Below are positions 663 to 43,294 of a stretch of 64,000 bases of DNA, in pieces. The stretch spans positions 1,240,001 through 1,304,000 of the forward strand of contig CP126196.1 of NCBI GenBank assembly GCA_030272155.1. The letters run 5' to 3'. A model generated the notes under the pieces. That model did no database searches. It had not been told where the DNA came from and worked only from the letters and a program-made list of their open reading frames with translations. This stretch comes from Tetradesmus obliquus. Lineage: Eukaryota; Chlorophyta; Chlorophyceae; Sphaeropleales; Scenedesmaceae. Both the position numbers and the translations under genes were made by a program. Every line of letters begins with the position of its first letter. Within the stretch, counting starts at the first letter, position 1.

Positions 663-3600
663 AGGACCCTGCCTCAGGCCCCATGTGCCACCAGTGCGCA
701 TCAACGCCGGCACGCAACGGCCACAGGATCGTGCAGGTTTGTGACTGGAAGGCGGCCCAGTTTGGCCTCGTTTTATGTTCTTTGTGTGGCAGGTGTGGCA
801 CACTAACTGTCCAGCAAGCGCCTACTGTGGGGCAGGTTCCACTGCTGACGGCTGAGAAGCGCAGGCAGTGCGTTGGTTTGTCTCCATTACTTGGTGGGAC
901 AGAAGCATCCCCGGCTGCCTGCACACTGTGCCTGTTGTGCACTGCATGCAGTCTGTTAGGCCCTGCATGCAGGAGCTCAGGTCACAGGAACATAGGCTTT
1001 TGGATCTGGCTGATCCTATTGGGCTGACAGCTGCTGGGCTCTTTAGGCGCTGGTGTTGGTGTCACTGCGTTTGGCTTCGCAGGCTGCAGGCAGCGGCACC
1101 AACTCCAGCACTCCAACAGGCACTGCAACCAGCAAAAGGCATGTATGGGCGCTGGCCAAAGGACTGCATCTTCACAGTTGAAACGTGTCTTGCTTGCATG
1201 CCTGTGTATTCAGGGTGGTTTGGCTACATCTCTGTATTGCTCGGCCTCCGAGGCTGGTTGAGCTTATTTCATTTGAATCAGTATTTGAATTCATTAATGT
1301 GTGCTGTTTGCGGCCTGTCGGCATGCTGCAGGTGTGCTGCTCCACCTACTTTGCGGCGCCCGTGGCTGGCAATCCCGGCTGCCTCAGACTATGGTCGCTT
1401 TTCTTTGGTACAGCACACCTCACCCTGTGCGCCGCCAATGTTTGCTGCCTGACACACCCTGCGTCCTTCATGTATACTCTGCTTCACCTCTCAAAAGAAG
1501 CTCAAGGCTGCTCGCCCTGCCTCCTCACACTCTTGCAGCCATCACTGCTGTGTGCGCGCCGTTTTACTTGTTGCATTGCTGCAGGTGCGGCGCTCACCTG
1601 CCATAAGGTTGCCACGTCACTTTTTGCCTCATTTGACCCCTGTGTGTGCTGCGGCGTGCCGCCCTCTGTTGCAACTCCCCCTGCAGGTGCGCCGCTCCAC
1701 GTACCATGAGGTGCTCAAGTCCAGCGAGGCGACAACACTGCTGGACGTGACAGGTGGGCACTGTGGGACTTTTTTTCTGTTTATTACTCAGTAATATCAG
1801 GCTGATCCTCCGCGTTGGGCCGGTGTCATGCTGGTTGGCTGAGATGGATTGTCATTGCTGGTGGCAACGGGTAATCGGCGGTGTAGCAAGTGATGTTCAA
1901 TTTGGGAACTGCTTGCCACTGCGCCGCATTGTATGTTCTGCTGTGCAGTGCCACGCTGCTTACAACGCAACAAGCATTCAGTGTGCGCATCAGCCCCAAA
2001 GCAGTGTTCAAAATCATAGTTATGGTGGGGTTAGGTGGCATAGCAATTGGTGCACTGGCTGATGCGTGGTGGAATGTGTTATCCACCCATATGATGGGGG
2101 CTGGCCCTTCCACCACGCCTGACTCAGGGCACCTGCAGCAGCGCAGATGATGAAGCCGCGGTTGTTGACGTTGCAGTGTGCAACCCCACGTGTTGCCAAT
2201 GGGCAGCATTCATGGTGTACTAAGTGTTACAGTGTTGTCATTCTTGTGTTGCGTTGGTTGGCTAATGTGGCCACACTGGTAGTAGCAATGGGCCGGCAGG
2301 TGAGTCTCGGCGGTGGCTCTACAGCATCAAAGACTACTTGCCATTGTGTTGCAGGATGTACGGTCCTGTGTAGTCTCACACTGCTTACCATGAAACAAAT
2401 CTTTACAGCAGTTTGCTGCAGCCCAGCGGCGTTGCAACTGACTACATATGTATACGTACATTATTGAAAGGGTCGGGCTTGGTGACAGAGCAGGCAGGTA
2501 GAGGGAGAAGTTACATGCGGGTCCTGGCACCATCAACGAAACTTGCGTCGCATAAGCTCGCAGGTATGAGCCACAACAGGGTTGCACATGGTCTGAATCC
2601 AGAAAGGAAAACAATGAACACAACCACATACGATGTACAGTCTTGCATGCCAAGAGCAGGTGGTGCATCTGCTGAGGCGTGGTGAAGGTGCGGCCGCCAT
2701 ACATGATGGGGCCTGTCCCCTTCCACCACGCCTGACTCAGGGCACCTGCAGCAGCGCAGATGATGAAGCCGCGGTTGTTGACGTTGCAGTGTGCAACCCC
2801 ACGTGTTGCCATCGGGCATCATGCATGGTGCACTAGGTGTTACAGTGCTGTCATTCTTGTGTTGTGTTGGTGTTGGTCGGCTAATGTGGCTCTACACTGC
2901 TAGTAGCAATGAACTGGCAGGCGAACCCAGGCGGGGGCGCAACAGCAGTGGCAACTCGCCATTGTGCCGCAAAATATGTTTTGCTGTGTAATCAGATGCT
3001 GCTTACAACGCATCACCCCTGCACAGCAGTGTAATTGGGTGCAGCAGTGTTCACAACCAAAGATGTCACAAAGATGTCATAAGTGGCGGGGCTTGGTGGT
3101 GGAGTAGGTGGTGCACTAGCTGAGGCGTGGTGGGGGTGGAGGTGCTCCTAATGATGGGGTCTGTCCGTTCCGTTATGCCTGAGCCAGGGCGCCTGCAGCA
3201 GCGCACACCTTACACCTTGAAGCTGCTCTGGTTTATGCTGCATAATACAATGTTACGTGGCAATTGACATCATCTGTGTCTTGCGGTCTGGGTCGTAGGC
3301 CCTGGGGCAAACGAGGTGCCTGTGTGGCGCTCATCGGCTGATGCCTGCTGATGCTTCGCTGTGGTTTGTGCCGCATCGTACAGTGCCACATGCTGCTGGG
3401 CGTTAGCTTGCAGCGTTGCTTATTGCATATTGTTGTAGCATTGAGCAGGCATGCAGCCGTACTTGGTGCACGGGAGGCCAGCACGGGCCTGCTCAACACC
3501 ACCGTGCCAAAGCTTTGCTGATGGAAAGACGTGACCATGCCACTGGTTGTCGGTGTCGCTGATCTGGCCCCGCAGACGTGCAGCCGTCTGTGGTCTATCA

Positions 3601-6600
3601 TGCGGTTGAACATGGAGTCAGTTATGTTGAGTTTGCACATTGTAGCAGATGGGAGAGTTACAGGTGGGATGGTGGTAGAAGAACACATCTTTGCAGGCAA
3701 GGCTGTGATCTACCACCATCCCACCTGTCAACTTAACTCCTTGTTCAACCGCACTTATGCCACGCTGCCCGCAGCCGTGCAGCCTTATGTGGTCTACGCG
3801 TCCAATGTCAAAGGTGCTGTTTGCCGTTATACTCATGCGCATACAATTTCTCTCTATCTGCCCCTCTGCAGACGTGCAGATTACGTGATCAACGCGAGCA
3901 AGGTGCTGTTCCTGCGGCCGCGCCCGCAGCCGCTCTCCAATGTCCCATTCAACAACTTTGCTGCCTGCTGCACCCATCGCCCGCGCGAACATCACACCCA
4001 CAAAACATCAGCAGTCAGCTCCTTGCTCCTCTGCTGCCACCACCATGTTGCTCACCACCATATCGCCTATTGACTTGTGTCAACGTCTTTGCCCCTTTGC
4101 AGACGTGCAGCCGTATGTGATCAACTCCAGCAAGGTGCTGTTCCTGCGGCCGCGCCCGCAGCCGCCCCTCACCCGTCCCACCCACCAACTCTGCTGTCAG
4201 CTGCACCCCTCACCCACCAGAATAACACACCCACAAAACATGACCAACGCTGCTCCTCACTGCTCTGCTGCCACCACCATGTTGCTCACCACCACACCGC
4301 CTATTGACATGTATCAACTTCCTTGTGCCCCGCAGACGTGCAGCCGTACGTGATCAACGCGAGCAAGGTGCTGTTCCTGCGCCCCCGCCCGCAGCCGCGT
4401 GCGCCCAAGGGCCAGGCCATGCCCAGCCGCTGCGTGGTGGACGGGCGCCAGCTCATGGACGCGGGCACGCGCTACTGCAGCATCAGGTGGGCAGTGTTGA
4501 CTTGTATTGTTGCTTTTGTTGCTGTTTCTGTTGGTTTTTACAAACTCATCTGCAAGCGTGCCGCCATCGCTGCGCTGCATTGTCATGAGCTTGTCAGGGC
4601 TGGCCTGTGATGTGGCCGCCAGCAACAATCCACTGTCTTCCAGCGTGCTGGTTTGCGGACAGTCAGCATGCTTGCTCTTTCTGTCAAACAAATCAAACTA
4701 TTTGTGTGATCCGCCAGGTGCAAATACAAGCCCAAGCATCCTGACAACTTTGTTAATTGTGACACGCTTTTTTTGACTCCAGCAGCACACTTACCTGTTT
4801 GCGGACACTTTCCCTTTGCCTGCGCCAGGTGCAAGTATGAGCACGAGCACCCTGATGACTTTGCCAAGTACGTGGCACGCGTGAAGCACCTGGAGACCTA
4901 CGCACCCCGCCCCAACAGCAGGGCAGCACTGACCTACCACACCAAGCAGCACAGCAAGCCTGCTGCTGCTGCTGCTGCTGCTGCCAGCAAGCCTGCTGCA
5001 AAGCCAAAAGCAGCAGCAGCAGCAGCAGCAGGGTCTGGTAAGGCAGCATCGCCTGGCAGCAGCAAGGGAGCACCGGCAGCAGCAGTGCCGGGCAAGGCTG
5101 CTGCTGCTAGTCCTGCTGCTGCTGGTGATGGCAGCAGCAGCAAGAAGCTCCGCCTCTCCCTTGCAGCACCAGCAGCAGCAGCAGCAGGTGGCGCTGACCT
5201 GGCAGCAGCAGCACAGCAGCAGCAGCAAGGCGCAGCAGCAGCAGCAGGGGATGTGGGGCTTGATAAAGTCAGCAAGGAGGTTGCTGATCTGTATAAGGCC
5301 CGGCTAGGGTTTGCAGGCAGCCCCATTCGGCGCAGCAGGCGGGCAAAAAAGAGTGCTGCTGCTGCGCTGATGCAGCAAGATTTTGAGCTGGATGATTTTG
5401 ACACTGAGGAAGAAGAAGAGGAGGAGGAGTATGTGGCAGAAGAGGCAGAGGAGGGAGAGGAGGGAGAGGAAGATGTGAGGGAGCAGCAGCAGGCAGCATC
5501 AGCAGCTGTGGGAGGCCAGCAGGGCAAGCAGCAGCGGCGCAGGACACCCACTAAAGCAGCGGCAGCAGCAGCAGCAGCGGCGGCGGCAGGGGCTAGTCCT
5601 GGTGTGGATGCAAGTGCGCAAGGTGACCCAGCATCAGCCAGCAAGCAGCCACGGAAGAGGGCCAAGCCGCCGGCTGGCAGGGGATTGGGTGCCAAGGGCG
5701 GTAGTGCTGCTGCTGCTGCCGATCAAGACAGCGGACTGGCTGCGCTGGCAGAAGCAGCAGCAGCCACAGACGAGCATCAGCAGCAGCAGCAGCAGAAGAG
5801 CGGCGGGCGGCGCAAGCCGCGTGCTCCAGCTGCTGCTGCTGCTGTTGGTGGCAGTATCAATGGCAGTGGCGGCCGGACCGCTTCAGGTGGCGGCAGCGGA
5901 GGCAGCAGGAAGCGTGGTAGGGGGCAGCAGGCAGCAGCGAAAGCACTGGCCGCACAGGCAGCAGCAGCAGCAGGGGATGATGATGATGGGTTTGAGTCGC
6001 CAACAGAAGCCGCGCGCGCTCAGGCGACAGAAGCGGCAGCAGCAGCAGCCAACATCATCCTGTCGCCCAGCGCCCGCACAGCTGTCAGCATCCTGGGCGG
6101 TTTAGGGCTCAGCTGCCACCGCAGCGGCTCACTAGGGTTCCCCGGCGGGCTGGGTTTAGAAAATAACAGTGTTGGCGGCGGCGGTTTTGGGGCTGCTGAA
6201 CCGCTGTTTGGCGGCAGGCGGCGCAGATCGTCCAATGGTGGCGGCAGCACTGCTGGCGCCAACCACACTGCAGCAGCAGCAGCAGGGCTTGGTCCAGATG
6301 GTTGGACAGCAGAAGATGGTTGGGGCTGCAGTATGTATGATGCAGATGCGCCGCAGTTTGAAACTGCAGAGCCGCCACCAGAGCTGCCACTAGCAGCAGA
6401 GCTGCAGCGGCCGCCCTCAGCAGCTGCTGCTGCTGCAGCTGCACCTGGGGCTCAGGGCTCAGTGGGTGGTGTTCAGCAGGAGGGTTCAGCGGGGCCCTGG
6501 GGTTCAGCGGCGCTGGGGTTTGGTGGGAACCCTGATCGGGGTGGAGCTGGGGGGTTTGGGGTTCAGGGATCTGCTGGCAGGGGTGATGCGGTTGGGTTTG

Positions 6601-8538
6601 GCATGGGCAAAGGCACTGAGCAGCAGCAGCAGCAGCAGCCGCTGCAGCAGCTGCCTGGGTATGCTGCTGCTGCTGGAGGCGCCGGTGCAGTAACAGGGCA
6701 ACTGAACCCTGCTGCAGCGGCTTTAGGGCCTAGGGTTTTGCCGGCTGGGGTTGAGGGCTCAGCAGAGTCCCCTGCCAGGCCTGCTGACAGTGCCGATGAT
6801 GCAGTGTTTGCTTTCTATAGGCAGGCAGTTGCTGCAGGCCAGCAGCAGCGCAGCGCACAGCAGCTGCCCTTGCAGCAGCAGCAGCAGCAGCATGTCGCGG
6901 GGTTTGGTCAGCCACAACAGCTAGCGCTTGGCCGGCAGCAGCAGCAGCAGCAGGCCATGCAGCAGAGGCTTGGGGGGTCTGAGCCCATTCCAAGTGTCCC
7001 TGCTCGTGTTGCTGGCATCGGTTTAGATCTCAGGAATCTCACAGCAGCAACAGCAGCAGCGCCAGCGCCAGCACCATCAGTGAATCCGGCGCTGTGGATG
7101 CAGTCCCCTGCTCCTCCCATCAGCGGCCCTGCAGGGGCTGCTGCTGCTGGCCTGATTGCTGCTGCTGGTCACTATGCTGCTGCTGCTGGTGGCGGCGGCA
7201 GTGTAGCTGCTGCTGGTTGGGATGCAAGTGCTGACCCTGCTGTCTTTTTTTGTGAGCGCCCCGTGAGGGGCAGCGGCAGGCCCAGCAGCGATGGCGGCGC
7301 GCCAGCCGGTAGCGGCAGGGGCAACAGCGGCACACCACCGCTCTACCCAGCAGCAGCAGCAGCAGGGTTAGCAGCAGCAGGTGTGCCCGGTGCTGCACCA
7401 CCACCAGCAGCAGCAGCAGCAGCAGCAGCAGTTAGGGGTGCATATGATGCTGCCGCTGGCAGTGGGTGGGGCAGGAGGGGCAGCTCAGATGGAGGGACAG
7501 GCGGGCAGCAGCAGCAGCAGCATGTTGGCAGCAGCACTGCACTGTATGGCCCATCTGGGCCAGGCAGTACGACAGCTGCTGTGCTGCAGCAGGCTTTGGC
7601 TCTTGGGGGTGGGCCTGAGACTGCTCTTGATGTGTTAGAGGCAGCAGCAGCACGGTCACCACTGCTGCCTGACAAAGAGCCGGCAGGAATTCTTGCTGCT
7701 GCTGCTGCTGCCGCATCTGGTAATCCAGGGTTTGTATCTCAGCAGCAGCAGCAGCACCAGGGTGTGGCTGGCTGGGGCGAGGGTTTATCGGCGGGGTTTG
7801 TTGAGCCGGAGGTGGCCCTGCCACGCTGGGGTGTGCGTGTGCGGCGCAGCAGGCAGCACCAGGTGAAGCTGGAGGGATCAGAGGTGATGCTGCTGCCTGG
7901 CGCACCCGGCAGCGCTGCTGCTGCTGCTGCTGCTGCTGGCAGTGCACCGCTGAGTGGCCGCAGCCCCTCGCCTCAGCCCAGCACAGCAGGGTACACAGGA
8001 GCTGCTGCTGGGGGTGGCAGTGTGGCGGGTGGGGGCAATGATGCTGCTGCTGCTGCTGCTGTCTGGCCTAGCAATATCATTGGCGCAGAGCTGCAGCAGC
8101 AGCAGCAGCAGCAGGCAGTGCCAGCAGCAGCTGCGCCTGGTGCTGTGCTGCCAGGGGTTGATGAGGGTGACCTGTCTGACAGCTGCAGCCAGGTGAGCAG
8201 CGCTGATGGTGTGTGAAAAGATGGACAGTCTAGCATGAACAATGCAAAGTTGCGCACCTTCAAGCATTGAAGAAGGTGTGCCTGCAAGCACTGCGTCCTC
8301 GTGCATCTCGTACGGGTGCTAGCTGTGCAGGTGCTACTAGCTAGGAGCTGTGCAGGCGACAGCATGTGATGCACATGCAAATACTGCAGCAGCAATTGCA
8401 GTGCCTGCCTGTTTGCACGCACTTGCAAGCCCTACATAGCTGCAGCGCACCACATCAACTGTGTTGGCTGCTCCTGCTGCTGCCTGAACCCCTTGCAGAG
8501 GCAGCAGCGCACCAGCAGGACCCCACCTAGCCAGTCTG

Positions 8539-9602: not shown

Positions 9603-9603
9603 C

Positions 9604-13075: not shown

Positions 13076-13131
<56 letters not shown>

Positions 13132-18167: not shown

Positions 18168-21100
18168 CTAGTAAGCAATGGCGGCCCCTTCCTCAACAGC
18201 TCCTGGCAGCCATACGGCAGCTCCCTGCTGTGCTGCCAGCTGCTGCATTGCAGCAATCTCCAACTGCAGCGCAGCAAGCTCTCGCTGCTGCTGCTGCTGC
18301 TGCTGCTCCTCCATCTCTGCAGCTGCTGCAGCACAGCCTGCCGCATCTGCTGCCATGCAGCCAGCCCCCAGCTCCTCTGCCACTGCTGCTGCTGCCAGCT
18401 GCTGCAGCGCCACTTCGCTGCTGCTGCCGCCGCCGCTGCTGCCAGCACCCGCACCCATACCTGCCAGCAAGTGCGCAGTCCCATACTGCTGCATCGCCTG
18501 CACTGCCTGCGGCTTCTTTGCAAGCCGCGCTGCCATCTCCTGGATAGCGCCATTTGTTATGCTGGCAAGGCTGTCAGAACTTACACCGAGCGCAGCAGCA
18601 GCCTCCTTTCCATACACCACCAGCATTGCAGTGTCCCTGGCCTGCACTGCAGCCTGCACGGTGCGGTAAAGCCCCACATACAGGTACTTGAAGGGAGGCG
18701 TGGCAATGAAGGCCTCATACCCGCCCTTGTGTGTGCGTACACCCAGCCTGCCAGTGCTGTGGCTGCCCAGCCGGCCATCTTTTGCAATCATGCTGCGGCG
18801 CGTGCAGATGCTCACGCAGGCCTCCCCGTCCGCACTGGTGCGGCTGCTGCTGCTGGGCTCCGCAAACGGCGCCACTGCTGCTGCTGCTGCTGCTGCCGCT
18901 GCTGGGCCGGCAGCAGGCAGCGCGAGCAGGCCAGCATCAGCCATGTCGATATCGCCCTCGGCAGCTGCTGCAGCTGCTGCTGCCGCTGCATACGCTGCAA
19001 CAGCCTCGGCATGCAGATCAAAGGACGCAAGCTGCTGCTGCTGCTGCTGCTGCTGCTCTGCTGCCTGCATGCTAGGGTCCCTGCTAGCCGCGCGCTTCGC
19101 GGCAGGCGCTGACTCATCCTGTGCTGCCGCCCCTGCTGCCATGTGTAGCCCTCCTGTGGTGGCGTCGCTCTCCTGGCCAGATGCTGCAGGCCCCTCCGCC
19201 TCATCTGCTGCTGCCAGCAGGGCCTGCTCCAGCCTGAACGCTGCTGCTGCGCTGCGCTTCCTGCTGCTGCGCCTGTGGCCGCCAATGCTAGCCTGGGCCT
19301 TAGCTGCCGCTGCCGCAATCTCCATGGCTGCCGCATTGCTTGCAGGAAGCGAGCCAGGCAGCAGGCCTGCCTCAGTATCCTCTAGCCGCTCTGCTGCTGC
19401 TGCCAGCACGTCCGACACGTGCTGCTGCTGCTCGTGCTGCCGCTGTTGCCGCCGGCTCGGGCGCCGCAAGGCCTCGCCCGGACCATAGTGCTCTGCTGCT
19501 GCTGCTGCTGCCGCAGCGGCCTGCTGCGCCTGCACCTGCAGCTGCAGCTGCACCTGCGCCAGCTGCTGCTGCGCCGCCGGCCCCGCACGCCGCTGCGCTG
19601 CCGCGGCAGCCTCCGCCTCTGCTGCTGTCAGCAGCGCATCCGTGCCGTACTGCCGCATCGCGGCAAGCGCAGCCGGCTTGGCAGACAGCTTCACGGCCAT
19701 GTACCGCACATCCTCCTCAGTCACTGCGTGGGGCTCAGCTCCAAACTGCTCGACCGCCAGCATGCTGCCGTAGATCGCCATCATGGCAGTTGCCTTCATG
19801 CGGCGGGCTTCGTAGAGGCTGTTGGCTCGGCCCACGTAGAGGTACTTGAAGGGCGGCGTGGCCAGGAAGACCTCAAACACGCCCTTGTGCTCGCGGATGC
19901 CTGCAAGTAAAGCAGGTGCAGCAAAGAAAGGAAAGGGAGGTGAGACGAACTCAAACCAGCAGCTAGGGGAAGATGTGGCACACAGGGTACATCAAACACG
20001 CCCTTGTGCTCGCGGATGCCTGCAGGAAGCGTGCGCAACAGGGCAGGGTGGGGCAGGGTGAGGCAGGATGTAACACGGTAAGGTTAGAGACGAACGCAGG
20101 CAGTAACAATGGCAAGGTACGGTGAACAGAGTATGGCACAGAAGATGCGGGCAAGGCGGGGTGTGGAAGGGTAGTTGAAACAGGGGCGGACAGGCAGCAT
20201 GTGTACAATGTTGCTGGGAGCAGGTGTGGAATTTTTGTTGAAGAGTCGGCGACACACATACACTCAAACAGCAAGAAGCAACTACAACAGCCAGACAGCA
20301 CCAGCGCACTTGCTGTCCCTGGTATGGCAGCGTTGTGTCACCACAGCAGCTGCAGGCATGCTTGCTTGCACCAGGCCGGCAGCCCACCTGTTGTGCCTGT
20401 TGGATTGGCTGTTGCGCGGGCATGGTAGTGCTGCAGCGATGCAGCAACCCCAGGAGCACTTGATGACACGCCACCACTGCTGGTGCGGGCCATGCGGCCA
20501 GCAGACAGCTTGGGAGTGGTGGCCCTGGAAGGCCTGGGCGCTGCTGCTGCCGCTGCTGCATCCTCGGTTACCGCCGGCTCGTACTCTGCTGCTGCTGCTG
20601 GCTGTGCTGCTGCTTCTGCAGCTGCTGCTAGTGCCACCAGCTCTGCCAGCTGGCCAGACTCAAAAGTAACAGCGGCTGGTGCCTCTGCTACAGCCTCTGC
20701 TGCTGCCGCAGCTGCATCAGCCTCCTCTTTCACAGGCACTGCAGCATCTGCTGGCTCTGCTGGCGCCCGTGAGCTTGCACGAACTGCAGCACGGCCGCTG
20801 CCAGCTGCTGCCGCCGCTGCTGCTGCTGCTTCAGCTGCTGCCTGCAGTCCTGCCCTGGACCTCCCAGTGCCCTGCTTGCTGGCATGTGCATGCAGCATCG
20901 GAGGCTCCCCGCAGCTGCCGCTGCTGGCCGCGCCAGCCTGGCTGCTGCAGCTGCTGCTGCTGCCCTTGCGCTCACCCAGCTGCAGCTGCTGCTGCTGCTG
21001 CTGCTGCTGCTGCATGCGCTCCTTGTGCTCCTCCCGGATCATCTGCAGCGTGTGCTGCAGCCCCGGCAGCCGCCTGCTGCGCGGCTGCTGCGGCTGGTGC

Positions 21101-27920: not shown

Positions 27921-30300
27921 ATGGCGGGGCTACAGCAGGACCCTTTCTACATCGTGAGGCAGGAAATACAGGATACGGTGAGCAGCAGGATGTCGCTGTG
28001 CAAAGCAGCATGTCGCTCGAACTGCAGCTGAGTGCTGAACTATGCTTCACCTGCATCTGCAGGTGAATGAGCTGCAGTCCAAGATGTCGCGGTTTCATGG
28101 CCTCACAGCAGCCAACCCAGAGCGTAAAACCATTGCCAACATAGTCACAGATGGTTGCGAGTCCTTAAAGTGGCAGGTGCGGACGATGAAAGACTCTTAC
28201 GCAGGCAGTGCAAGCAGTGAACACGTGCTGGAGCAGCTAGGCTGGAGGACAGCTCAGCTACACCTCTAGCACATACATCACACAGCACTTGAAATATTTG
28301 TGCAGCTGTTCGCAGCTACAGCATGTTTCAAACCTTCTTGCTGCCAGTAAGGCAGCAGCGGCTGTGCCGCCGTGGTCTCATGCAGCTGCGTGCATCCAGG
28401 CAGTTTACGGGTGCCTCTGTAGCAATTTGCCTCATGCAATTTGCCCACCTCAGCGCTTGTGCTGCTGCCTTGCTCTTGTGCGGCTTGCCTGCAGGTTAAT
28501 GAGCTAGATGCAGCAGTTAATCGGGCAGCAGAGCAGCCGCAGCGCTTTGGGCTGACGCCAGAGGAGATAGCCAGCAGACGAAAGTGGATCTCATCTACAC
28601 GGCGGCAGGTGCGCCAGCAGCCACAGATATAGCTGATGCAAATGGCAGCAGTGCATCGGCAGCTGCTGCAATTTGTTTTGGATCGCATGCCAAAAAAGCA
28701 CCAACTTCGTCCCGGCGTTGCCAGGTTTAGGCCTGTTGCTGCTCCAGCAGTAGGCTACAGGCTTGCACACACAGGCAGCAGCAGCAGCAGTCGCCAGTCA
28801 AACAGCAGCAGGGTGCTCACCACCAGGCAGCCAGCAGCTGGTACTGTGTTGCATTTCAGCCGACATGCTAACAGCTGAGACGCAACACGCCACAAGGGGT
28901 TGAGGGTTCGCTGCCGTGCTCAGCACGTGAGCCCTGCATGCTCCTGCAAACATGCCGCACTGCAGATCGAGGGCATGACTGACACCATCAAGACTGCCAC
29001 CGCTGCGCGCGTGAACCCAGCAGAGGAGAAGCTGCACAAGGCCAATGAGGGCTTCCTGCAGGACGAGGGCGGCAAGCAGCAGCTGCTGCTCAAGTGAGTT
29101 GCTGCGGTCCGGCAATTCTTAGCTCTATTTTGCGCTGAGTGGGGCTGCTGCGGGCAGCAGCCGTTTGGCTGACTAGCGCCGAAGCTGTGGGCCCTGCAAG
29201 CAGCAGATGGACAGCGTGAATGGGGCTTGGGGCGTAGGCGCATGTGCATGGGCATGTGCATCGCTGTGGCTTGTAATGGAGGGGCTGGATGCAGCACAGG
29301 AGTCATGCAGCAGCGATGGTTCATTGAGAGTTCAGTGGCTGATGCCATCCGCAGCAGCCGCAGCAGCCTGCTGCTGGGGCTGAATGCTCATCTTGCAGGG
29401 GTGCTGCACCAGTGTTCAACACACCAGTGGCACCGTGTCGGGGACAGCCAGCGGCTGCAGATGCTGTCTGGCACGCCTTGCATGGCGCCTCCTCCATTAC
29501 AGGGACCAGGCCAGCGAATCTGCTGGGCAGCAGTTGGTGCCCTGGTGCGCTGCGCCTTGCTGCTGCTGCTGCTGAGTGTATTGTCGTGGCCATGCGTTCC
29601 TGCAGGCACCAGGACGCGCAGCTGGAGGACATCGAGGCTGCTGTGTGGTGCCGTGGCTGCTGCGTTTCAAACGGATTGTGCTAATGCACTGCTGCCGCTG
29701 CTGCTGCTTCATCCCTGCAGGCACCAGGACGCGCAGCTGGAGGACATCGAGGCCGCTGTGCTGTGCCCTGTTGCTGCCGATCCTAATGCTGACACACTCT
29801 TCTGGCACGTTCTTGTGTGTTCCTGCAGGCACCAGGACGCGCAGCTGGAGGACATCGAGGCTGCCGTCACGCGGCTGGGCCGTGTGGGGCTGACCATCCA
29901 CGAGGAGCTGGCCAGCCAGGGCCAGATGCTGGACGAGCTGGGCGAGGACGTGGACACCACGCACAGCAGGCTGCGCGCAACACAGAAGAAGGTGCGGCTG
30001 CAGGGGTGTGACGAAGCATGTTCTTGTGGCAGGTGCTGCAGTTGCTGGACTTGCGGGCCTCCCCCTGTTCATGGCTCCTTGCTCGCTCCTGTGCTTGGTG
30101 GTGTCCTGCATGCCCGTCTGCTGGTCCCTTGCTGGCCGCCTTGAGCTGGTGTTCTTTAATTCTCCTGCCGCTGCTGCTGCTGCTGCTGCTTTATGCAGGT
30201 GCTTGATGTGATAAAAAAGAGCGGCACTACAACGCAGCTAGGGCTTATCGTTTTCCTCATGATCGTACTGGTGGTGCTGGCAGTGGTAGCTTTTGTATAG
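27921..30300 (+). CDS. Syntaxin-6/SYP6-type Qc-SNARE (225 aa)
   Basis: The six exons 27921-27977, 28063-28176, 28495-28608, 28966-29093, 29829-29991 and 30199-30300 sum to 226 codons including the stop, with consistent phases. The N terminus (DPFYIVRQEIQDTVNELQ, then RFGLTPEEIASRRKWISSTRRQ) matches the syntaxin-6 N-terminal three-helix domain. The SNARE motif runs from HQDAQLEDIEAAV through LASQGQMLDELGEDVD to RLRATQKK. The Gln in LASQGQ sits where the zero-layer Gln is expected. A single C-terminal membrane anchor follows (GLIVFLMIVLVVLAVVAFV). Members of this family act in trans-Golgi/endosome membrane fusion. The length is typical. The intron before the SNARE-motif exon contains repeated copies of that exon's head (separate entry). 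Confidence 0.94.
29600..29870 (+). repeat. Triplicated acceptor and exon head before the syntaxin SNARE exon
   Basis: The sequence encoding HQDAQLEDIEAAV follows ctgcag three times, with exon starts at 29606, 29721 and 29829 (real). The coding bases are almost identical in all three. The gap from 29721 to 29829 is 108 nt without a stop, so the middle acceptor would insert 36 residues, duplicating the start of the SNARE motif. The first copy is 115 nt further upstream and reaches a TAA within 26 codons. Confidence 0.92.
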
Positions 30301-31347: not shown

Positions 31348-31560
31348 GTGAACTTTGTCCAACACATGTTCACCATGGACGTCCGCGCTGTGCCGCTGGC
31401 CATGGACGCCCAGCAGTGCACTTGTGCTCCTCGGCGTTTGTTTGGTGTGATCTTCACATCCAAGCCTGCTGCGTGCACCAGACCAGCTTTGTTACATTCT
31501 TACCTACCACATATACGGTTTAAAATATTGCCTGCAGCGTCTCAAGCCCAGCAGCCCCAG

Positions 31561-31917
31561 ATGTCAGGCTTCAGCCTGGACCTGCTGTCTCTGCTGCCAG
31601 CTGAAGGCCCCACACACACCGTGTCACCATTCAGCAGCCATGGCAACACCGCAATAGCACGGGAGGTGAACCAATCGACCCAGCAAGCCCTGATCGAGGT
31701 TTCACTGCCAACAGGAGAGGCACTGGCCTTCTGGGCACCCCTCAGCGCCATTAGCATCTGCAGCAGCACCCAGCGTGTGACCTGGCGCACCAGCAGCAGC
31801 ACTGCGCCCGCTTCTGCTGCTGTCACAGCAGCCGCCCCATCAACAGCCATTGATGATCAACGTCTGTCTGGCCAGCTTGAGCAGCTCATGCAGCAGCATG
31901 CAATGCCTCAGGGTGGC

Positions 31918-31963
<46 letters not shown>

Positions 31964-33304
31964 CAGCAGCACCCTTAGGCCCATTTGCATCAGCACCAGC
32001 CATGCAGCCACCCCTGAGCATCACCACCTACAGCAACCAGCAGCAACAGCAGCAGTCCAGCAGCAAAGACATCAACATACCACATGCCTACGACCAGCAG
32101 CAGCAGCAGCAGTGGCTGCAGCCACCTGAAGACACTGCAGGTGCTGCCTGCTACCCCTACCCACAGCACCACTACAGCATCACCACCACCAGCCAACCAG
32201 CACCTGGACTCCCAGCAGCTGATGCCCCATCTGCCCTACCTGGCCTGTTTCTGAGCAGCCCACCTAGCAGCAAGCCTGGCTGCAGCATGTCTGGTGGTGT
32301 GCATGCCTACCAACCCCCTGGAGGTGGCTCGCCAGTGGTTATGCTGCTGACTGCCTCCCCTAGGCCTGCTGCTGCTGCTGCTGACCCTCTGCAGCACTTC
32401 ATGTGCCTGCCTGCCAGCATGCCAGCGCTCATGCCAGCTGCAGCTGCAACTACAGCGGCAGCAGCAGCGGCAGGTCCGGCCAGTGAGCAGATGGACATGC
32501 CAGCAGCAGCAGCAGCAGCAGGATCGGCCGGGAAAGGTGGTTGCTATGGTAAGATCAAGCCAGGTAGCCTTGGCAGTGGCGAGCTGGATTTCAGCTGGGC
32601 TGGCTTCAACAGCAGCAGCAGCTTTGACGGGAGCTGCCTAGTCAGCAGCCAAGCAGCAGCAGGAGCAGCAGCGGCGGCGGCAGCAGCAGCGGCAGTCAGC
32701 AACACCTGGCCTGAGCTGCCGCTGCTGCCGCCAATCACAACGGCAGCAGCAGCAGCAGCAGCAGGTGCTGGCACTGTGGGGATGCCCTCAATGTCCCATC
32801 CAGACACAGCAGCAGCAGCAGCAGCAGTGGGCGATGAGTCAGCTGGTTGGCTGCGGCACCCGGCTCTGTTGCACTCCTACCAGCTGCAGCACAGCATGCA
32901 TGGCTCCACACCTGCAGCAGCAGCAGCAGGGCTTGATGATGTATTTGACAGGACCTCCATGCAGCAGCGTACACAGCTGCATGTGAAGCAGCGGCGCAGC
33001 AGCACCAGCAGCAGCGCTAGTTTCAGCAGCGACGCCAGTGCTGCGCTAGACCTCTCCCAGCCCAGCCTGCCGCAGCACCTGCTGCTGCTGCAGCAGGATG
33101 CACCATCACTGCCTTCAACGCTCTGCGGCCAGCCGCCGCTGCAGCAGCAGCAGCAGCAGCAGCAGCTTGATGCAGTGCCGACTCAGCCCCACCAGCTAGT
33201 GACCAACATTGCAGCAGCAGGCAACGAAAACACTACTGCTGCTGCTGCTGCCGGCAAGCGCGTGAGGCAGTCAGTCACCTTCCAAGGTGCAGCACCTCCC
33301 ACAG

Positions 33305-33336
<32 letters not shown>

Positions 33337-34092
33337 GTAGCCAGGCCCAGCTTCAGGGGTGTCAACCAGCACAGCAGCACCAGCAGCAGCAGCAGCAGCA
33401 GCAGTAAGAGCGGCAAGGCAACTGCAAGCATCACAGTAATGGGTGTGGAGTTGCAGCTGGGGCACTTCGAAGATGCCTTTTCTGCAGCGAGGGCATATGA
33501 TGTGGCCGCACTCGCGCTGCTGCAAAACATAGCAGTGACAAACTTCCCTAAGCAGAGCTACCATGCAGCTGAAGTGGCGGCAAAGCGGCGGCAGCTGCTG
33601 CAGCAGCTGCAGAAGCAGGGCGGGCGCAGCGGCACTGGTGCTGTTGCAAAGCAGTGGGCTGCAGCACAGGAGCTGCAAGATCACAAGAGGCTGCTGCTGC
33701 AGATGGATGCGGAATGCAGTGATGCTGCGCCATCAAAGGCTGCTGCTGGCAATGCAACAGAGCATGGCAGCTACAAAGCGCCTGGCGCTGGTGCTGCAAC
33801 AGCAGCAGCAGCAGCAGCTGCAGATGATGCAGCAGCCAGCCTGATGATGATCAGCAGCAGCCCTATGCGCAGTAAGCCTCCAGGGCAGCTCAGCAATGTT
33901 ATGTTGAATCTGAGCACACAGAGCTTCGCAGCAGGTGCTACAGATGGCAGCAATGATAACAAACACACACAGCTGATGCAGCGGAAGGATCTGGCAGCAG
34001 CGGCGCCGGCGGCAGCAGCAGCAGCTGCTGCAGCAGCTCTGCTGCTTGATGCTCGGCCGTCTGGCAGTCTAGACCAGCCCAATGTGCCAGAT

Positions 34093-34149
<57 letters not shown>

Positions 34150-34261
34150 GCAGCAGCAGCGGCAGGCAAGAAGGGTGGTCAGCGCAAGAAGGGAGGGCCA
34201 CGCTCAAGCAATCAGCCGCAACCACAGCAGCAGCAGCAGCAGCCTGAACCGCCAGTGACTA

Positions 34262-34293
<32 letters not shown>

Positions 34294-34383
34294 GCTAGCA
34301 TGCAGCCTCCTCCGCACAGATCTGGAAGCAGTGCTGAGGCCAGGAGGAAGCTAAGGCATGACCCGCTGCTGCTGCAGCGCCAG

Positions 34384-34418
<35 letters not shown>

Positions 34419-36203
34419 CCCTGGAGTGCTGTCTCCCCAGCTGCCGCCGGCACGCTCATCATGCTTCAGCCCTGGCTTTAGGCGTGCTGCTGGATTTGGC
34501 TTTGGAGCAGCAGCGGCAGCAGCATCAGCAGCAGGAAGTGTTCCGCACCCACACCCACTAGGGTTTGGTGCTGCCTCAGGTCTTGGCAGTCCTCCTCCTG
34601 CTGCAAGTACTGCTGCTGCTGCTGCATCCTCCCCGATGCTGCTTGCCAGCTTGTTTGCAGAGAGCAGCCCAGCATCTGGCAGGCTTGTGCCATACAGCCT
34701 TCCAAGGTTTGGGCTAGATCATGATGTGCATGGAGGCAGTACAAGTTTGTTTGGCTTTGGGCAGTACGATCAGCACCACATGCTTGGCAGCCAGCAGTAC
34801 AACCCATTTGACCAGCAGTACAGTCAGCTGGGGGTTGCAGGGGGTTTAGGCATTGATCAGGCCAGCGATTTAGGGTTGGGGCTGGAGCCTGCTGGGTTGG
34901 CAGCTGCGGTAGGGGCAGACCAGGTCAGTGGGGTAGGGCAGGCGATAGCATCTGGCTTTGCTGGTGCTGCTGCTGGTGCTGCTGCTGGTGGCAGTGGTGG
35001 TGGTGCTAGCGGTGGTGGCGCAGGAGCAGCAGCAGCAGCTACTGCTACTACTGCTGCTGGCAGTAACGGGGTGCTGCTGTCGCCCAAGAACCTGCTCAGC
35101 AAGTTTGCAGAGAAGGAGCAGCAGAGGCAGCAGCAGATGCAACAGCAGAAAGAGAAGCAGCAGCAGAAGGAGAAGCAGCAGCAGCAGCAGCAGAAACAGC
35201 AACAGCAACAGCAGAGGAAGAAAGGTCAGCCCAAGCCCAAGGCACAGCAGAAGAAGCAGACAATACAGAAGCAGCGGCGCACAGGGCAGCAGCCAGCACT
35301 TAAACAAGTGCAGCAGCAGCAGCAGCAGCAGGACGGCCAGGTGACGAGTGCAGTTCAGCAGCTGGGCCCTGCTGCTGCTGCTGCTGCTGCTGCTCAAGAT
35401 GCCACTGCAGTCGAGCCGATGCCGATCTCCAGCGCACTTGTATCTGGCACATCAGCAGGCCAGCATGCACCCGCAAGTGCTGCCATGCCTAACAGCGCAA
35501 CTGATGTTGCTGCACCACTCAACACATCTCCGCAGCAGCAGGTGGCATCCGCACAGCAGCAGCAGCAGCAGCTAGGCAGCAATTTGGATACAACCGCTGC
35601 AGCTGCAAGCAAGGAGGGCCAGCAGCGCCCCACCCAGCCAGCTGCATTGGACACCGCACGGCAAGAGCTGCTGGTGAAGCACGCTGAGCCAGCAGCAGCA
35701 GCAGCAGCAGCAGCTGTGGCTGCACCTCCTGCTGCTGCAGTCATGGCTGATGGCTCAGTGGGCATGGAGCAAGCCCAGCTGTCGCCTGCACATCCAGCAG
35801 CACCAGCAGCAGAGCAGGCAGCAGCAGCAGCAGTTCAGCGCGATGCTGCAGTGCTCGCTGCAGCGCCCGCTGTGGTGACTGCAGACGCAGCAGCAGCACG
35901 TGTGGCCGCACCAGCAGCAGCTGCGGACACCTTTGCGCGGGTCAAATCTGATGGGGCAGCTGCGCCAGTGCTGCTGCCAGCCCTGTCAGGCCCTGCAGCT
36001 GCTGGTGGTGGTGCTGCTGCTGCCGCCCCTGTGGAGGCAGCAGCAGATGGAGCCAAGACCATACATCCGCGGCAGCAGCTGCAGCAGCAGCCGCTTGCAG
36101 AAGTTCCAGCTGCAACTGCTGCTGCTGCTGCCCCAGCAGCAGCAGGTGCTGCGCCAGGCATCAAGAAGCGCACCCTGAAGCTACCAAAGAAGATGAAGCA
36201 GCA

Positions 36204-36242
<39 letters not shown>

Positions 36243-36471
36243 TTCAGCGGCGGCGGCTGCAGCTCCTGCTGACGGCCAAGCAGCAGCGCCAGCTGCTGCT
36301 GCAGGCGCAAGGGCTGCGGCAGTGCCTGTTGCTCCTGCAGGGCAGGCAACAACAGCAGCAGCAGCAGCAAGTGCTTTGCCTGGTGTGAGCGGTGCAGCAG
36401 GAGCAGCCGAGCCAGCGACGGCAACGCCAGCAGCTGCTGCACAGAAGGCATCTGCTGTTAAGGCAAGCAAC

Positions 36472-36512
<41 letters not shown>

Positions 36513-38103
36513 TAAGCAGCCTGCCGTTGCAAAGATGCCAGCAGCCAAGAAGAGCCTCAAAAAATCGGGCAGCAGCAGCAAGGCTGGGGCTGCAGATGCC
36601 AACGTGTTGGCAGCAAAGTGGGCGCCCCGTAAACTGGCTGCTGCTGCTGCTGCTACAACAGCAGCACCAGCGGCAGCACCAGCACCAGCTGTGGTTAGCT
36701 CTGAGGACAACCCAGCAGCAGCAGCAGTTGCACAAGAGGGCACGTTGCAGCCAATGCCAGCAGCAGCCGCAACAGCAGCAGCAGGTGCAGCAGGCATGAA
36801 GCGGCCGGCACATCAGAAGCTGCAGCAGCCAGCTGCCAAGAAGCCCAAGACAGCAGCAGCAGCAGCAGCAGCAGCAGCCAATGCTTCAGCTGCAGGTCAG
36901 AAGGGGCCTGCTAGCAGCAAGCCACCAGCTGCTGTTGCAGGTGGAAAGGCTGGTGCAACAGGATCACCAGGAGCAGCAGGAGCAGCAGCAGCAACAGGCA
37001 AGGCTGCTGCTGATGCGGTGGCAAAGCCACGCACTGCTCCTCCAGTCGCCAAACTGACAGCTGCTGATCAGAAGATGGCTGCTCTTGCCAGGCTGGTGGC
37101 GCCAGGCACAACAGCAACACAGCTGGCAGCAGCAGCCCAGAGGAAGCAACTGGCAGCAGCAGCTGCAGCAACAGCAGCAGGGGCAGTGAAGAGGGTGCCA
37201 CAGCAGGCGCAAGAGAAGAAGCGAAAGGCTTTGCCACCAGCGGCAGCAGAAGCAGCAGCAGCGGCAGCAGCCAAAGCACCGCATGCCAGCAAGGGCCAGA
37301 CGGCTGGCGCCAAGGCTAGCGGCTTGCAAGCATCTGCTGCAGCCGCAACACATCAGCCTAAGAAGCCCAAGACAATGCCAGGCAGCACATTTGCAGGGAA
37401 AAGTGCAGGGTCCAGCAAGACAGCAGCTGCTGGGGCAGCCGGCACCAAGTCGGCTGCACCTGCAACAGCAACAGCAGGCGCAGCAGCAGCATCGAAGCCC
37501 GCTGCAACGCCAGCAAAGGGCCCCAGCGGACGTGCAACAGCCAACTCTGCAGCAGCAGAGAGTCAGCCTGGGTCCTTGCAGAAGCGGCCACGCAAAACAA
37601 AGGCTGCTGCTGCGGCGGCGGCAGCAGCAGCAGCAGCAGCAAGCCCTGCAGGTGCTTCCCCATCTGCTGCAGCACCAGCAGCAGCCAGCCCAACCACACC
37701 TGCTGCAACAGCAGCAGCAGCAGCAGATCCAGATGCTGCCGATCTATCAGCTACGGTCAAAGACAGCGGGCCCGGCTGTGTGAGCCATGCACAAAACCCC
37801 ACCGGCCACATGGGTGTGCGCAAGCGCAAGGAGCGCTTTGAGGCATTCGTTGCAACGCAGCCCTTCAGGTACCTCTACCTAGGACAGCATGCAACAGTGC
37901 AGCAGGCAGTGCGCACGCGCGACACAGCGCTGCTGGCTATCTACGGCCCTGAGGCTGCTGCTGCGCACGGCGCTGCATGGCTGTCGCCTGGAGCTGCTGG
38001 CAGCATTGCAGCAGAGGAGGTGGCGGCGATGGCTGTCAAGTTGTACAAGAAGGAGCAGGTGGCGAGTGTGATGAATCAGCATGGCACAGCACCAGCTGGG
38101 TAG
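31561..38103 (+). CDS. Giant AP2-like transcription factor with two AP2 domains (about 2,180 aa)
   Basis: One frame is open from 31348 to the stop at 38101-38103. I place the start at ATG 31561 (MSGFSLDLLSLL), just after a ctgcag acceptor-like site; in-frame ATGs at 31366 and 31375 are alternatives. AP2-like unit 1 lies near residues 590-665 (FRGVNQHSS, a Ser run, then MGVELQLGHFEDAFSAARAYDVAALALLQN). Unit 2 lies at the C-terminal end near residues 2065-2140 (MGVRKRKERFEAFVATQPF, YLYLGQHATVQQAVRTRD, AIYGPEA). The rest is Ala-, Gln-, Ser- and Pro-rich, with Lys-rich patches (KKGGQRKKGG, QKEKQQQKEK). It is probably a nuclear regulator with a long disordered body. No intron is needed across 6.5 kb, although the neighbouring genes in the right half are densely interrupted. 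Confidence 0.8.
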
Positions 38104-38372
38104 TGAGCTGGGGTGCAGCAGCTGGATCGCGTTGTGCTGCAGGGGATGCAGGCCCGGTGCAGCAGGCAGTGCGCACGCGCGACACAGCGCTGCTGGCTAT
38201 CTACGGCCCTGACGCTGCTGCTGCGCACGGCGCTGCATGGCTGTCGCCTGGAGCTGCTGGCAGCATTGCTGCAGAGGAGGTGGCGGCGATGGCTGCGAAA
38301 CTGTACAAGAAGGAGCAGGTGGCGGGTGTGATGAACCAGCATGGCACAGCACCAGCTGGGTAGTAAGCTGGT
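37897..38372 (+). repeat. 260-bp tandem duplication of the AP2 gene 3' coding end
   Basis: The last roughly 207 coding bases (from VQQAVRTRD to the stop) plus a few downstream bases reappear 260 bp later, at about 38157-38372. The copy keeps the reading frame of its own half-domain through VMNQHGTAPAG and a TAG. Differences are few, including GPEA to GPDA, MAVKLY to MAAKLY and VASV to VAGV. Because 260 is not a multiple of three and the first copy ends in a stop, the second is outside the main frame. It is either a pseudo-copy or an alternative last exon. Confidence 0.88.
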
Positions 38373-39942
38373 GTGCAGATTTGGGCTTGGGCTGCGGCTG
38401 CTGCCAGCGACGCTATGGGATGTGTACAACCAACGCTGTTGATGTGGGTGGGACAGCAACTGCTGTGGACTGAGCTGATGTGCAGCTGCTAGCTTCATTT
38501 GCTGCAGAGGATGCGGCTGCAGGCGATGCCATAGTATGTTACGCAAGCAGTCAACGCGTGTGGTTCACAGCATTACTGGCAGGGCAAGCGGGGCATGTGG
38601 TGGCAGCATGGCATGGCACAAGCTGCTTTTGGGCTGTTATATTGTGCAGATCGACAGTACCTGGCACTCGTGCCACTGGTGGCACTCGTGCTTGTAACGT
38701 CATGGCGTGCTGCATGCTGCAGTCTTGCAGTGCTGCACCATTGTGTGATTTTTGTTCTTGCCTTGCGATCAGAGCACCAGGGACAGCCTGCAGACTATGG
38801 CTACTTACTCCGTTGACCAAACAGGCAGCTCAACAGGATGCCACCAGTGGTTTGACCAGCTTTTGGGGCCAGCTGCTTTGACAACCTGGTTTGAGCAACA
38901 GCTGCATGGAAGGCACAGGTTGTTGCTGTTGTGATGAACATGCAAAGGAGTACCAAGACGGTGCAGTTTGTTTTCTGTTGGCAACACCTTGTGCGGTGCA
39001 TATGTATGATGGATGTTGTCAGTGTTGCCTTGATGTGAGTACCGGCACTATCTATGTCGTCGTTTGTGCCATCTGCGACACCAAAAGATTGCAGGCCCTC
39101 AGGATCGGTCAAGTACTATGGGTGGCATTCTGAAAAAGCGCTGCTGCCCTGCGCACTTAACTCGTTGCTTTTCAGTACCAGGATCCCAGTATTTACAATG
39201 TAGGGCGTGATGCACGACAATGTGGCAGGTGCAAGGCAGACTTGCTTGCTTGGCTGCCTGGCCCAGCATAATGCTGCGCAGCAGCTGCTGCTGCTTCAAC
39301 ACGTAGTGCCTTCAGGGTCTATGTGTCAGGTTGTGATCACGAGAGCTCGTACGATCTAGGTGATGTGTAAAACATGTATGTTACTGGTCGGTCGGTGTGT
39401 GCTGCATCAATGCTGTGAAGTTATAGCGGCTTTTAGTGTGAAAGGAAGGATGCAAACGTGCACATACATCAAAGCCTGCAGCACTTTAGATGGCATCTGC
39501 TGAGCAACATGGCCACCGGGACCAATGAATAGTATTTACAACTGCTGCTTCAACAGTAACATCAGGGCCTGCTGGCGTGCTAGCCTGCAGGCCAGAGTCT
39601 GCCCAATGCAGCACCAATTGCAATGGCCAACAGCAACAACACATACATACATGGCTGACTCAACCCAACAAAACAGTATAACAACAGGCATTGCGCGGCA
39701 TGTTGCCTGACCGCACATGCCAACAGCGCACAGCGCACAGCACACAGGATCAAGAACAGCAGGAACTACTTCTTGCAATAGCTGAATGCAACGTATTGCT
39801 CAGCGCACAGCACACAGACAACAAAGCAGCGCAACAGCAGCTGATGACAGCCAAGTGCGCCAACAGTCACCTGCTGCCTGCTGGCCTGTAACAAACAGTG
39901 CCTTCTGCCGGCACAAACATCGGACCATGCCGTCATGCCACT
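38104..39942. other. Convergent intergenic region between AP2 and helicase genes
   Basis: This begins with the duplicated AP2 end. A TGTAA at 38693-38697 matches the usual green-algal polyadenylation signal and could end the AP2 transcript. The rest shows no supported gene. The right end would hold the 3' UTR of the minus-strand helicase. Confidence 0.5.
38693..38697 (+). terminator. Possible TGTAA polyadenylation signal for the large AP2 gene
   Basis: TGTAA is the common polyadenylation signal in chlorophyte algae. This one lies about 590 nt after the AP2 stop codon. A pentamer occurs often by chance, so the assignment is weak. Confidence 0.25.
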
Positions 39943-41688: not shown

Positions 41689-43294
41689 TGTATGGTCAGC
41701 GCAGCGCTCCAACAACAAGCAAAGAGCATAGTGATGTGCGAGGACTGCCTGCCGCACAGACCAGCCTTGCCCCATGCTCCTGCTCGCGCACCCTGCACCA
41801 CCAGCAAGCCAAGCAAGCAACAGCACTGCTGCATACTACATTACCTCCCCAAACAACTGGAGCCGAACCGCATCCCCACTGCAGCTCAACTGCGGCCCCT
41901 GTCGAAGCTGAGCTCTCCCAAAGTCAGCATTCCCCCAAAGTCAGCACGCGCACCACAGAGTTCAGGCAGCAGCCGGCCAGGCGTGGCGATGACCAGCTGT
42001 CCACTAACAGCGACTCAACTGCCACACTACTCAACTCACCCTGTTGAGGCTGAGCTCCCCTGAGGTCACAAAGTCCAGCAGCCGGCCAGGCGTGGCAATG
42101 ACCAGCTGCGGGGCCCGGGACAGGCTGCGGCCCTGCGGCCCGCGCGATGCGCCACCATACAGGCACCTGCAGGCATGCAAACACATGTGCACAATGTGAG
42201 TCAGGTTGCTGGGATTGTCACTCCACATGCACTTGCAACAACAACGTGCGCAGTGCACAGCTGCCTGCAGGCTGCGGAGCACGGGAGAGGCCCTGCGGCC
42301 CGCGCGATGCGCTGCCATACAGGCACCTGCAGGCACACAGGGACACACACAATGCGAGTCAAGTTGCTGGGATTGTCACTCCGCATGCACTTGCAACAAC
42401 AACATGCGCAGTGCACAGATGCCGGCAGGCTGCGGTGCACGGGACAGGCTGCGGCCCTGCGGCCCGCGCAATGCACCGCCATACAGGCACCTGCAGGCAC
42501 ACAGGGACACACACAATGTGAGTCAGGTTGCTGGGATTGTCACTCCACATGCACTTGCAACAACAACATGCGCAGTGCACAGATGCCGGCAGGCTGCGCT
42601 GCACGGGACAGGCTGCGGCCCTGCGGCCCGCGCGACGCGCCGCCATACAGGCACCTGCAGGCACACAGGGACACACACAATGCAAGGCAGGTTGTTGCAC
42701 AGATTGCTGCGATTGCCGCCCATCAGGAGTGCTTGCAGGCACAAACAGGCAAGCGCACAATGTAAGGCAGGTTGTTGCACAGGTTGCTGCAGTTGCGGCG
42801 ACCGCCACACATCAGCAGCACTTGCAGGAACAGCAGATGTGCTCCTTCAAAACGCCGGCAAGCGTGTTGACCAGCAAATTTAGAGGGGAAGGTAGGCTGC
42901 TGCAAAGCGACAACATGCAGCTGCAACATGTCGAGGGTGCGAACAGGCACTCAAGGCTGTGCAACACCCTCCTCCAGGACAGCAGGTGCACACTCGCGCG
43001 TGGCGTGTGCTGAAGCACGCCCCCAGGAGCTCCGCCTCGGGCTGGATCTGCAACCCAGGTCGCCCAACAACACTGCCACTGACAGCAACCTCGGGACATG
43101 CAGGTGGCAAGCAGGTGAACACTCACGCATTGCGAATCTTGAAGGGCGCCCCTAAGCGCTCCGCCTCGTGCTGGATCTGCTGCGCCAGCTCACGCGTGGG
43201 CGCCAGCACCAGCGCAAACGGCGGCGCCTTGCCGGCCCCTCCCCAGCTCTGTGGCTGGTTCCACTTGCTCTGCCAGCCGCCGCGCTGCTGCTGC

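Follow-up and report, generated by a model that had tools for sequence, protein, structure and literature searches.

Introns of Tetradesmus obliquus bear short copies of neighbouring exon edges and splice sites at both ends

Introduction

In a 64,000-nucleotide stretch of the genome of the green alga Tetradesmus obliquus (GenBank contig CP126196.1; C6:1240001-1304000 within a 17-contig genome of 104.66 Mb; the whole stretch is hereafter called the window), introns of several genes contain short copies of the head of the following exon together with its splice acceptor. What produces such copies, and what allows them to stay? A sequence-only reading had described them in four genes, labelled PLATZ, AP2, syntaxin, and helicase, and had proposed a process peculiar to 3' splice sites, with regulated splicing or alternative isoforms among the possible roles. 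We analyzed the window and 24 further stretches of 10 kb from the same genome. GC content was mostly 0.55-0.60 across the stretches examined; the values published for the species are 109 Mb, 57% GC, and a mean intron of 462 bp, the longest among the five algae tabulated in the excerpted part of the source (PMC5966456).

Results and Discussion

Copies at acceptor and donor sides

Introns in this sample bear short, decaying copies of the neighbouring exon edge and its splice site, and they do so at both ends. From 277 confident exons predicted ab initio in the window and 23 of the stretches, 534 exon ends were counted (270 acceptor sides and 264 donor sides). After low-complexity filtering, copies were identified in the adjacent intron at 31/270 acceptor sides and 36/264 donor sides, in total 128 copies at 67 of the 534 ends. 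The two rates are not distinguishable (Fisher p 0.51; p 0.26-0.51 at exon-score cut-offs of 8, 12, 16, and 20). Without the filter and at a score of at least 20, exon heads matched their upstream intron in 29/270 cases and exon tails their downstream intron in 37/264, compared with 3/270 and 2/264 for unrelated introns; unfiltered matches on the wrong side amounted to 3/257 (heads downstream) and 7/257 (tails upstream). A metagene window profile showed equal peaks at the exon edges, where 10-13% of the edge windows matched at both site types against a null of 0-0.7%. The copies sit in introns dividing two coding exons in the predicted models. With copies tallied up to six per exon end, one to five were present at 63/67 ends and at least six at 4/67, and 467/534 ends were free of copies at the threshold used.

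The impression of a 3' bias arose because the window alone has copies at 5/55 acceptors and 3/54 donors. Judged by equal frequency at the two site types, a yardstick set beforehand, specificity for the 3' splice site is refuted at this sample size by the counts of 31/270 and 36/264, and we regard a process of that kind as scarcely credible.

Orientation, spacing, and anchoring at splice junctions

Local repeat pairs within 1 kb were direct in 194 cases and inverted in 11; their spacings clustered chiefly at 80-160 bp, with a second peak at 220-280 bp. An ungapped repeat tract covered 59 junctions, with a median exon side of 48 nt and a median intron side of 11.5 nt at acceptors and 14 nt at donors; only 1/59 tracts lay chiefly on the intron side. 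Among 70 exon-intron tracts, the near boundary was located on the intron side within 20 nt of the junction in 46, 14 began within the exon, and 10 extended deeper into the intron. The tracts of at least 92% identity reached no more than 14 nt into the intron in 15 of 18 cases. Pairs of intronic copies (hereafter decoys) showed an intron side of at most 14 nt in 52/95 and an exon side that short in 4/95, the pairs not being independent of one another. Minisatellites would appear as many near-identical copies regardless of gene parts; here the copies are few and their boundaries follow the junctions in 46/70 tracts.

We simulated acceptors that undergo random tandem duplication and then decay neutrally. 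Short intron sides made up 24-38% of recent simulated tracts, reaching 64% only with a threefold intron rate and many indels, and 7-18% of simulated tracts lay chiefly on the intron side versus the 1/59 observed. Random duplication and decay are therefore insufficient to account for the 15/18 short intron sides.

Among 65 testable best copies, homology extended into the intron flank, as in a whole unit, in 22 (shuffle p<=0.02), was not detectable there in 33, and was in between in 10. Of 33 tandem arrays, none duplicated a whole exon and two spanned more than one predicted exon. Eight were wholly intronic (periods 95-151 bp, one of 56 bp) and three wholly exonic, with periods that are all multiples of three:

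L010, 1060-1179: exonic tandem array, period 54
L021, 5703-5925: exonic tandem array, period 105
window, 13008-13194: exonic tandem array, period 96

Intronic arrays together with frame-keeping exonic ones are what a general duplication process would give under filtering by selection. An apparent enrichment of boundary-straddling arrays (18/26 versus 44% at random) is not claimed, since the random placement used post-duplication intron lengths. The distance to the next exon was also larger beside copies (median 666 versus 296), a confounded comparison, as the copies themselves add to this distance and a search has more scope in longer introns.

A genome-wide search with three spacers, in which very common words were skipped, returned self-matches only, and mutual comparison of 58 spacers gave matches of just 15-17 nt; no introner-like dispersed family was seen among them. 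This agrees with the earlier observation that the sequences are unrelated between genes and do not belong to a dispersed element.

Decay and splice quality of the copies

Tract identity ranges from 71 to 100%, matching the earlier description of copies from nearly identical to decayed, and because of this span the copying process is spread over time. For splice scoring and for the decoy-decoy comparison, only alignments ending within 8 nt of the junction were used, which kept 120/128 copies in the splice-scoring set. A canonical dinucleotide was present in 44/53 head copies and 49/67 tail copies. Mean site scores were 5.6 for decoy versus 7.0 for real acceptors, and 6.0 for decoy versus 6.4 for real donors; of the 93 canonical decoys, 46 equalled or exceeded the real site in score. 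Decoy use is predicted to cause a frameshift or a stop in 88/93 and to leave an open in-frame product in 5/93, so the protein would depend on the outer site. Of 43 gap events in the copies, 39 shift the frame, and stops occur 10 times in the 128 copies and not at all in the real exons.

Mismatches between real exon and copy fall at third codon positions in 58% of cases (181/313); low-complexity filtering reduced this comparison, which also covered splice dinucleotides, from 75 to 54 cases. Among differences from the real exon that two decoys have in common, 47/76 are at third positions, and a codon-periodicity test on all repeat pairs pooled gave a weak signal (z 1.9). Coding constraint on the decoys, which the third-position skew favours, was weakened as a candidate by the polarised changes and the frameshifts. 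The spacing of the copies shows no preference for multiples of three (43/38/47 for remainders 0/1/2). Together with the frame-shifting gaps and the predicted consequences of decoy use, this makes the proposed role as a source of isoforms unlikely.

Relation to contig size

Copies were found at 28/378 junctions on contigs of at least 6 Mb versus 39/156 on smaller ones, an exploratory contrast noticed after looking at the data. Contig size correlated negatively with copies across 24 stretches including the window (Spearman -0.56, p 0.005) and across 16 contigs (-0.60, p 0.014); in the same stretches, neither distance to the contig end nor GC was significantly related to copies. A further pair of stretches with few confident exons, both outside the 534 ends and examined against a prediction from contig size made beforehand, had a copy at 0/6 junctions (L032, small contig) and 0/9 junctions (L033, large contig); their local direct pairs numbered 16 versus 6, with the redundancy step omitted. 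Smaller chromosomes usually recombine more per base. The density of local direct repeats was 0-5 pairs per 10 kb on C1-C3 and C7 (11 in one stretch) and 9-22 on C8-C15 and C17.

Origin of the copies

The copies themselves, their symmetry between intron ends, direct orientation, spacing, junction anchoring, and decoy frameshifts are established. As the best reading of them, to which we give about an even chance of being correct, we propose local direct duplication at exon borders that is tolerated since the outermost sites are spliced, with similarity to the exon prolonged by constraint and perhaps by conversion. A segment spanning an exon-intron border, whether acceptor or donor, would be copied in direct orientation over a distance of some 80-160 bp, probably by tandem duplication. 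Splicing at the outermost copy, which adjoins the complete exon, would be favoured by exon definition and would leave the mRNA unchanged, and the inner copies would remain as decoys within a lengthened intron. Decoys would then decay without clear coding constraint. Intron homology would be lost fast after tandem birth, and the exon side would stay recognisable for longer, its partner in the real exon being constrained. Short-tract gene conversion or slippage between copies might renew the exon part, and the rate of copying could be linked to that of recombination. The data thus suggest that introns grow through local copying, with the spliceosome keeping to the outermost site.

Conversion would have a possible parallel in a tandem gene pair of the window (48735-54236 and 57482-62646, plus strand) that resembles GT2 glycosyltransferases, the best Pfam match being 24.8 bits and below the cut-off of 27. 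Exon lengths mostly match, and 12 exon pairs are 78-100% identical in a patchy manner, some at 92-100% (100% over 50 nt, 97% over 139 nt) and others at 78-83%. Exon-sized patchy gene conversion may lie behind this pattern. Ungapped flanks mostly lose similarity within ~50 nt; the gapped identity of the introns is 66-79%, without a baseline.

Several observations count against duplication with tolerated decay. Random tandem duplication with neutral decay fails to give the junction anchoring, and the 33/65 best copies without detectable intron-flank homology include some whose exon part is 95-97% identical. Third positions account for 21/44 of the changes seen in the closest decoy alone, where 32% is expected (p 0.036). 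The 10 stops in 128 copies compare with an upper-bound expectation of 30.1, obtained by assigning every mismatch to the decoy, and the 33 copies without flank homology have 0 stops versus 7.7 expected on the same upper bound; the stop deficit and the third-position lean may point to constraint of some kind or to conversion. Conversion itself is a postulate and was not observed. In the gene pair the introns are partly alignable, a 1280-nt block at 72% spanning several of them; for that reason the exons are less clearly islands, which slightly lowers our confidence in the reading. Finally, the exons come from ab initio models that had this very sample for training and eye-read sites as seeds.

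The anchoring is what splice-anchored copying would explain, as here only the exon edge (~30-80 nt) and the splice consensus (3-20 intron nt) would be copied into the intron, with template switching or repair at exon borders under transcription as possible mechanisms; spaced copies would come first and whole tandem units would be secondary. It would account for the near boundaries close to the junction in 46/70 tracts, for the recent tracts stopping within 14 nt of intron (15/18), for the missing flank homology in 33/65, and for the same shape in decoy-decoy pairs, where neither member is a real exon. However, the one of the 18 recent tracts with the highest identity, 100%, is part of a 79-bp tandem array (L025), intron homology is present in 22/65 copies, wholly intronic arrays have similar periods, and no machinery is known; we consider this route rather unlikely. 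A more far-reaching proposal, of an active, recombination-linked, and junction-anchored copying of exon edges and splice sites that would affect ~1 in 8 exon ends, and ~40% in some stretches, so that introns grow outward as arrays of decoys that only an exon-definition spliceosome ignores, is a tentative one that we doubt somewhat less.

Selection could instead keep the decoys as competing sites that slow or regulate splicing. That about half of the canonical decoys (46/93) score as high as the real site or higher, and that AG is retained in 21/23 head cases, would fit such a role. GT, however, is retained in 21/31 tail cases (with GC in four more), no excess over the ~25 expected at 89% identity; acceptor decoys are weaker on average, frameshifts accumulate, and 467/534 exon ends do without a copy, which together leave a regulatory role improbable. 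Slightly more improbable still is that the copies are translated as alternative or mutually exclusive exon ends. The third-position excess of 181/313 and the stops below their upper-bound expectation speak for it, but the skew is stronger where two decoys oppose the real exon (47/76) than in changes of the closest decoy (21/44), 39/43 gaps shift the frame, and 5/93 decoy uses stay open. Mutually exclusive exons would have open frames and be complete; the copies hold frameshifts and 10 stops, and 0/33 arrays duplicate a whole exon. False duplication of haplotypes or reads during assembly is hard to reconcile with identities spread over 71-100%, with at least six copies at some ends, with boundaries that track splice junctions, and with three exonic arrays that keep frame, and we hold an artefact to be very improbable.

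Comparison with known systems and implications

Intron growth is usually attributed to mobile elements. Mass remodelling of introns is a trait shared with introner elements, which are dispersed families, and none such was found among the spacers here. Tandem splice sites of the NAGNAG type are likewise neighbouring, competing sites of one type, with a spacing of a few nt; in T. obliquus the spacing is ~100 nt and exon sequence is copied along.

Duplication across the junction between an intron and the exon that follows it has been published for a single gene (PMC4974935). In the excerpted text of that report, a boundary-crossing tandem duplication copies the acceptor and exon head as it does here, but as one event, with a new intron taking in part of the upstream copy. 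Here, in contrast, many genes, both site types, and multi-copy arrays are involved, and existing introns are lengthened; a new intron is not shown. Short direct intragenic duplications that supply ready-made splice sites are also the basis of the Rogers-type AGGT model of exon-segment tandem duplication and of internal gene duplication (Gao and Lynch 2009; Hellsten 2011; via excerpts of PMC3443670 and PMC4974935). In the AGGT model, as given there, an exonic AGGT segment becomes the intron, whereas here an exon edge and an existing splice site are copied: 59 tracts cover the junction, and 14/70 begin within the exon. In the open-licence full-text literature, outside which most subscription papers lie, we found no report of exon-edge copies at such density, symmetry, and junction anchoring genome-wide. 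Boundary-crossing duplication is thus known singly, and it is the density, symmetry, and anchoring for which no report was found.

If correct, the reading of local border duplication would mean that introns can grow in a way that is silent at the protein level. The copies would also be a natural experiment on splice-site choice, and, should the sample stand for the whole genome, competing sites ~80-160 nt apart would be present in a great number of genes. According to the proximity rule for splice-site choice (PMC9225289, excerpted text), the inner decoys would be picked under intron definition and the outer, real sites under exon definition; the persistence of decoys therefore predicts exon definition in this alga.

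Copies in the window

The copies named by the sequence-only reading in the PLATZ, AP2-labelled, syntaxin, and helicase genes were found again at their places by reading, most of them also among the matches listed in a self-diagonal scan, and their spacings are 97-253 bp. Pfam confirmed the PLATZ, DEAD, Helicase_C, and SNARE domains. The label AP2 did not hold, as none of the three candidate domains gave a match to an AP2 Pfam model, even with the cut-off relaxed to E<=10. Nine exon ends (seven heads and two tails) were compared with the adjacent intron, scoring the best copy only for each end, and each beat all 500 shuffles (p<=0.002); the weakest was the PLATZ exon at 1687, with a score of 15 against 14 for the best shuffle. 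The features of the PLATZ gene are:

1332..1359, plus strand: outer copy of the acceptor and head of exon 1687 (reading; 79% over 34 nt; 253 bp to the next copy)
1585..1620, plus strand: inner copy of the same exon head (reading; 102 bp to the real exon; whole intron shuffle-tested)
1687..1753, plus strand: real exon (gene finder, Pfam)
3576..3597, plus strand: copy of the exon-4336 head, the most decayed (reading, scan; 199 bp to the next)
3775..3808, plus strand: copy of the exon-4336 head (reading, scan; 97 bp to the next; intron 3300-3860 shuffle-tested)
3872..3933, plus strand: copy of the exon-4336 head in an array of 233-bp period (scan; 231 bp to the next)
4103..4165, plus strand: copy of the exon-4336 head in the same 233-bp period array (scan; 233 bp to the real exon)
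4336..4486, plus strand: real exon (reading, gene finder, Pfam)
4718..4752, plus strand: copy of the exon-4829 head (scan, shuffle test; spacing 111 bp)
4829..7465, plus strand: following real exon (gene finder)

The intron part 3860-4320, which holds the copies at 3872 and 4103, was included in the shuffle tests. The gene finder placed the start of the exon after these copies at 4344; by eye, reading frame and motif speak for 4336. The large PLATZ intron also contains, at 2042-3205, partial copies of a longer repeat with spacings of ~613 and 448 bp and 76-95% identity.

In the other three genes, the following features were identified:

19989..20024, minus strand: AP2-labelled gene, copy of TGCAG and the exon head (36 nt at 97%; no detectable similarity in the intron around it)
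18168..19900, minus strand: AP2-labelled gene, real exon (gene finder)
29606..29646, plus strand: syntaxin exon-head copy (reading, scan, shuffle test; 115 bp to the next)
29721..29761, plus strand: syntaxin exon-head copy (reading, scan; 108 bp to the real exon)
29829..29991, plus strand: syntaxin real exon, in the gene with the SNARE domain (gene finder, Pfam)
42040..42166, minus strand: helicase real exon, in the gene with the DEAD domain (gene finder, Pfam)
42180..42697, minus strand: helicase, three exon-head copies starting at 42326, 42490, and 42654 (reading, scan, shuffle test)
41967..41999, minus strand: helicase, downstream-intron copy of segment 42108-42076 from the exon (33 nt at 97%)
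42981..43051, minus strand: helicase, downstream-intron copy of the exon tail with its donor, 43180-43110 (71 nt at 80%)

The AP2-labelled copy starts at 20019 and its real exon at 19900, a spacing of 119 bp. The helicase exon-head copies have spacings of 160, 164, and 164 bp, and this 160-164 bp period takes in intron sequence. The two helicase donor-side copies are absent from the earlier description, and both beat all shuffles. Segment 42108-42076 lies 36-69 nt from the exon end and hence stops 36 nt short of it; a decayed likeness of the very end of the same exon and its donor, seen by eye only, follows further on. The tail copy at 42981-43051 has GC where the real donor has GT.

Gene models and further repeats

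The ab initio gene finder was trained on the same sample, with acceptors read by eye in L031 and the window as seeds. It recovered the five exons read by eye in L031, which belong to a Gly_transf_sug gene (Pfam), a partly circular result because the L031 acceptors served as seeds. The finder also called decoys as low-scoring exons (29606-29647 and 19984-20019), and decoys can thus be taken for exons by gene finders. A first gene finder was discarded for drifting into over-prediction and a second coding model because Ala/Gln repeats dominated it; a flank-identity measure was set aside since free end gaps inflated its values. Triplet runs coding for Ala/Gln are common in the window and misled the early gene finders, and a 2256-codon open frame at 31333-38103 (plus strand) is rich in CAG/GCA repeats.

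Loci L001-L007 were excluded from the counts. Stretch L027, on C16 near 1.0 Mb, was excluded from every exon count for its long satellite arrays; it contains two satellite-like arrays, at 1-3959 and 4115-6039, with periods of ~275 and 340 bp. At 37897-38378 of the window (plus strand), a 260-bp duplication (95%) seems to repeat the last coding stretch of a gene and its stop past the gene end.

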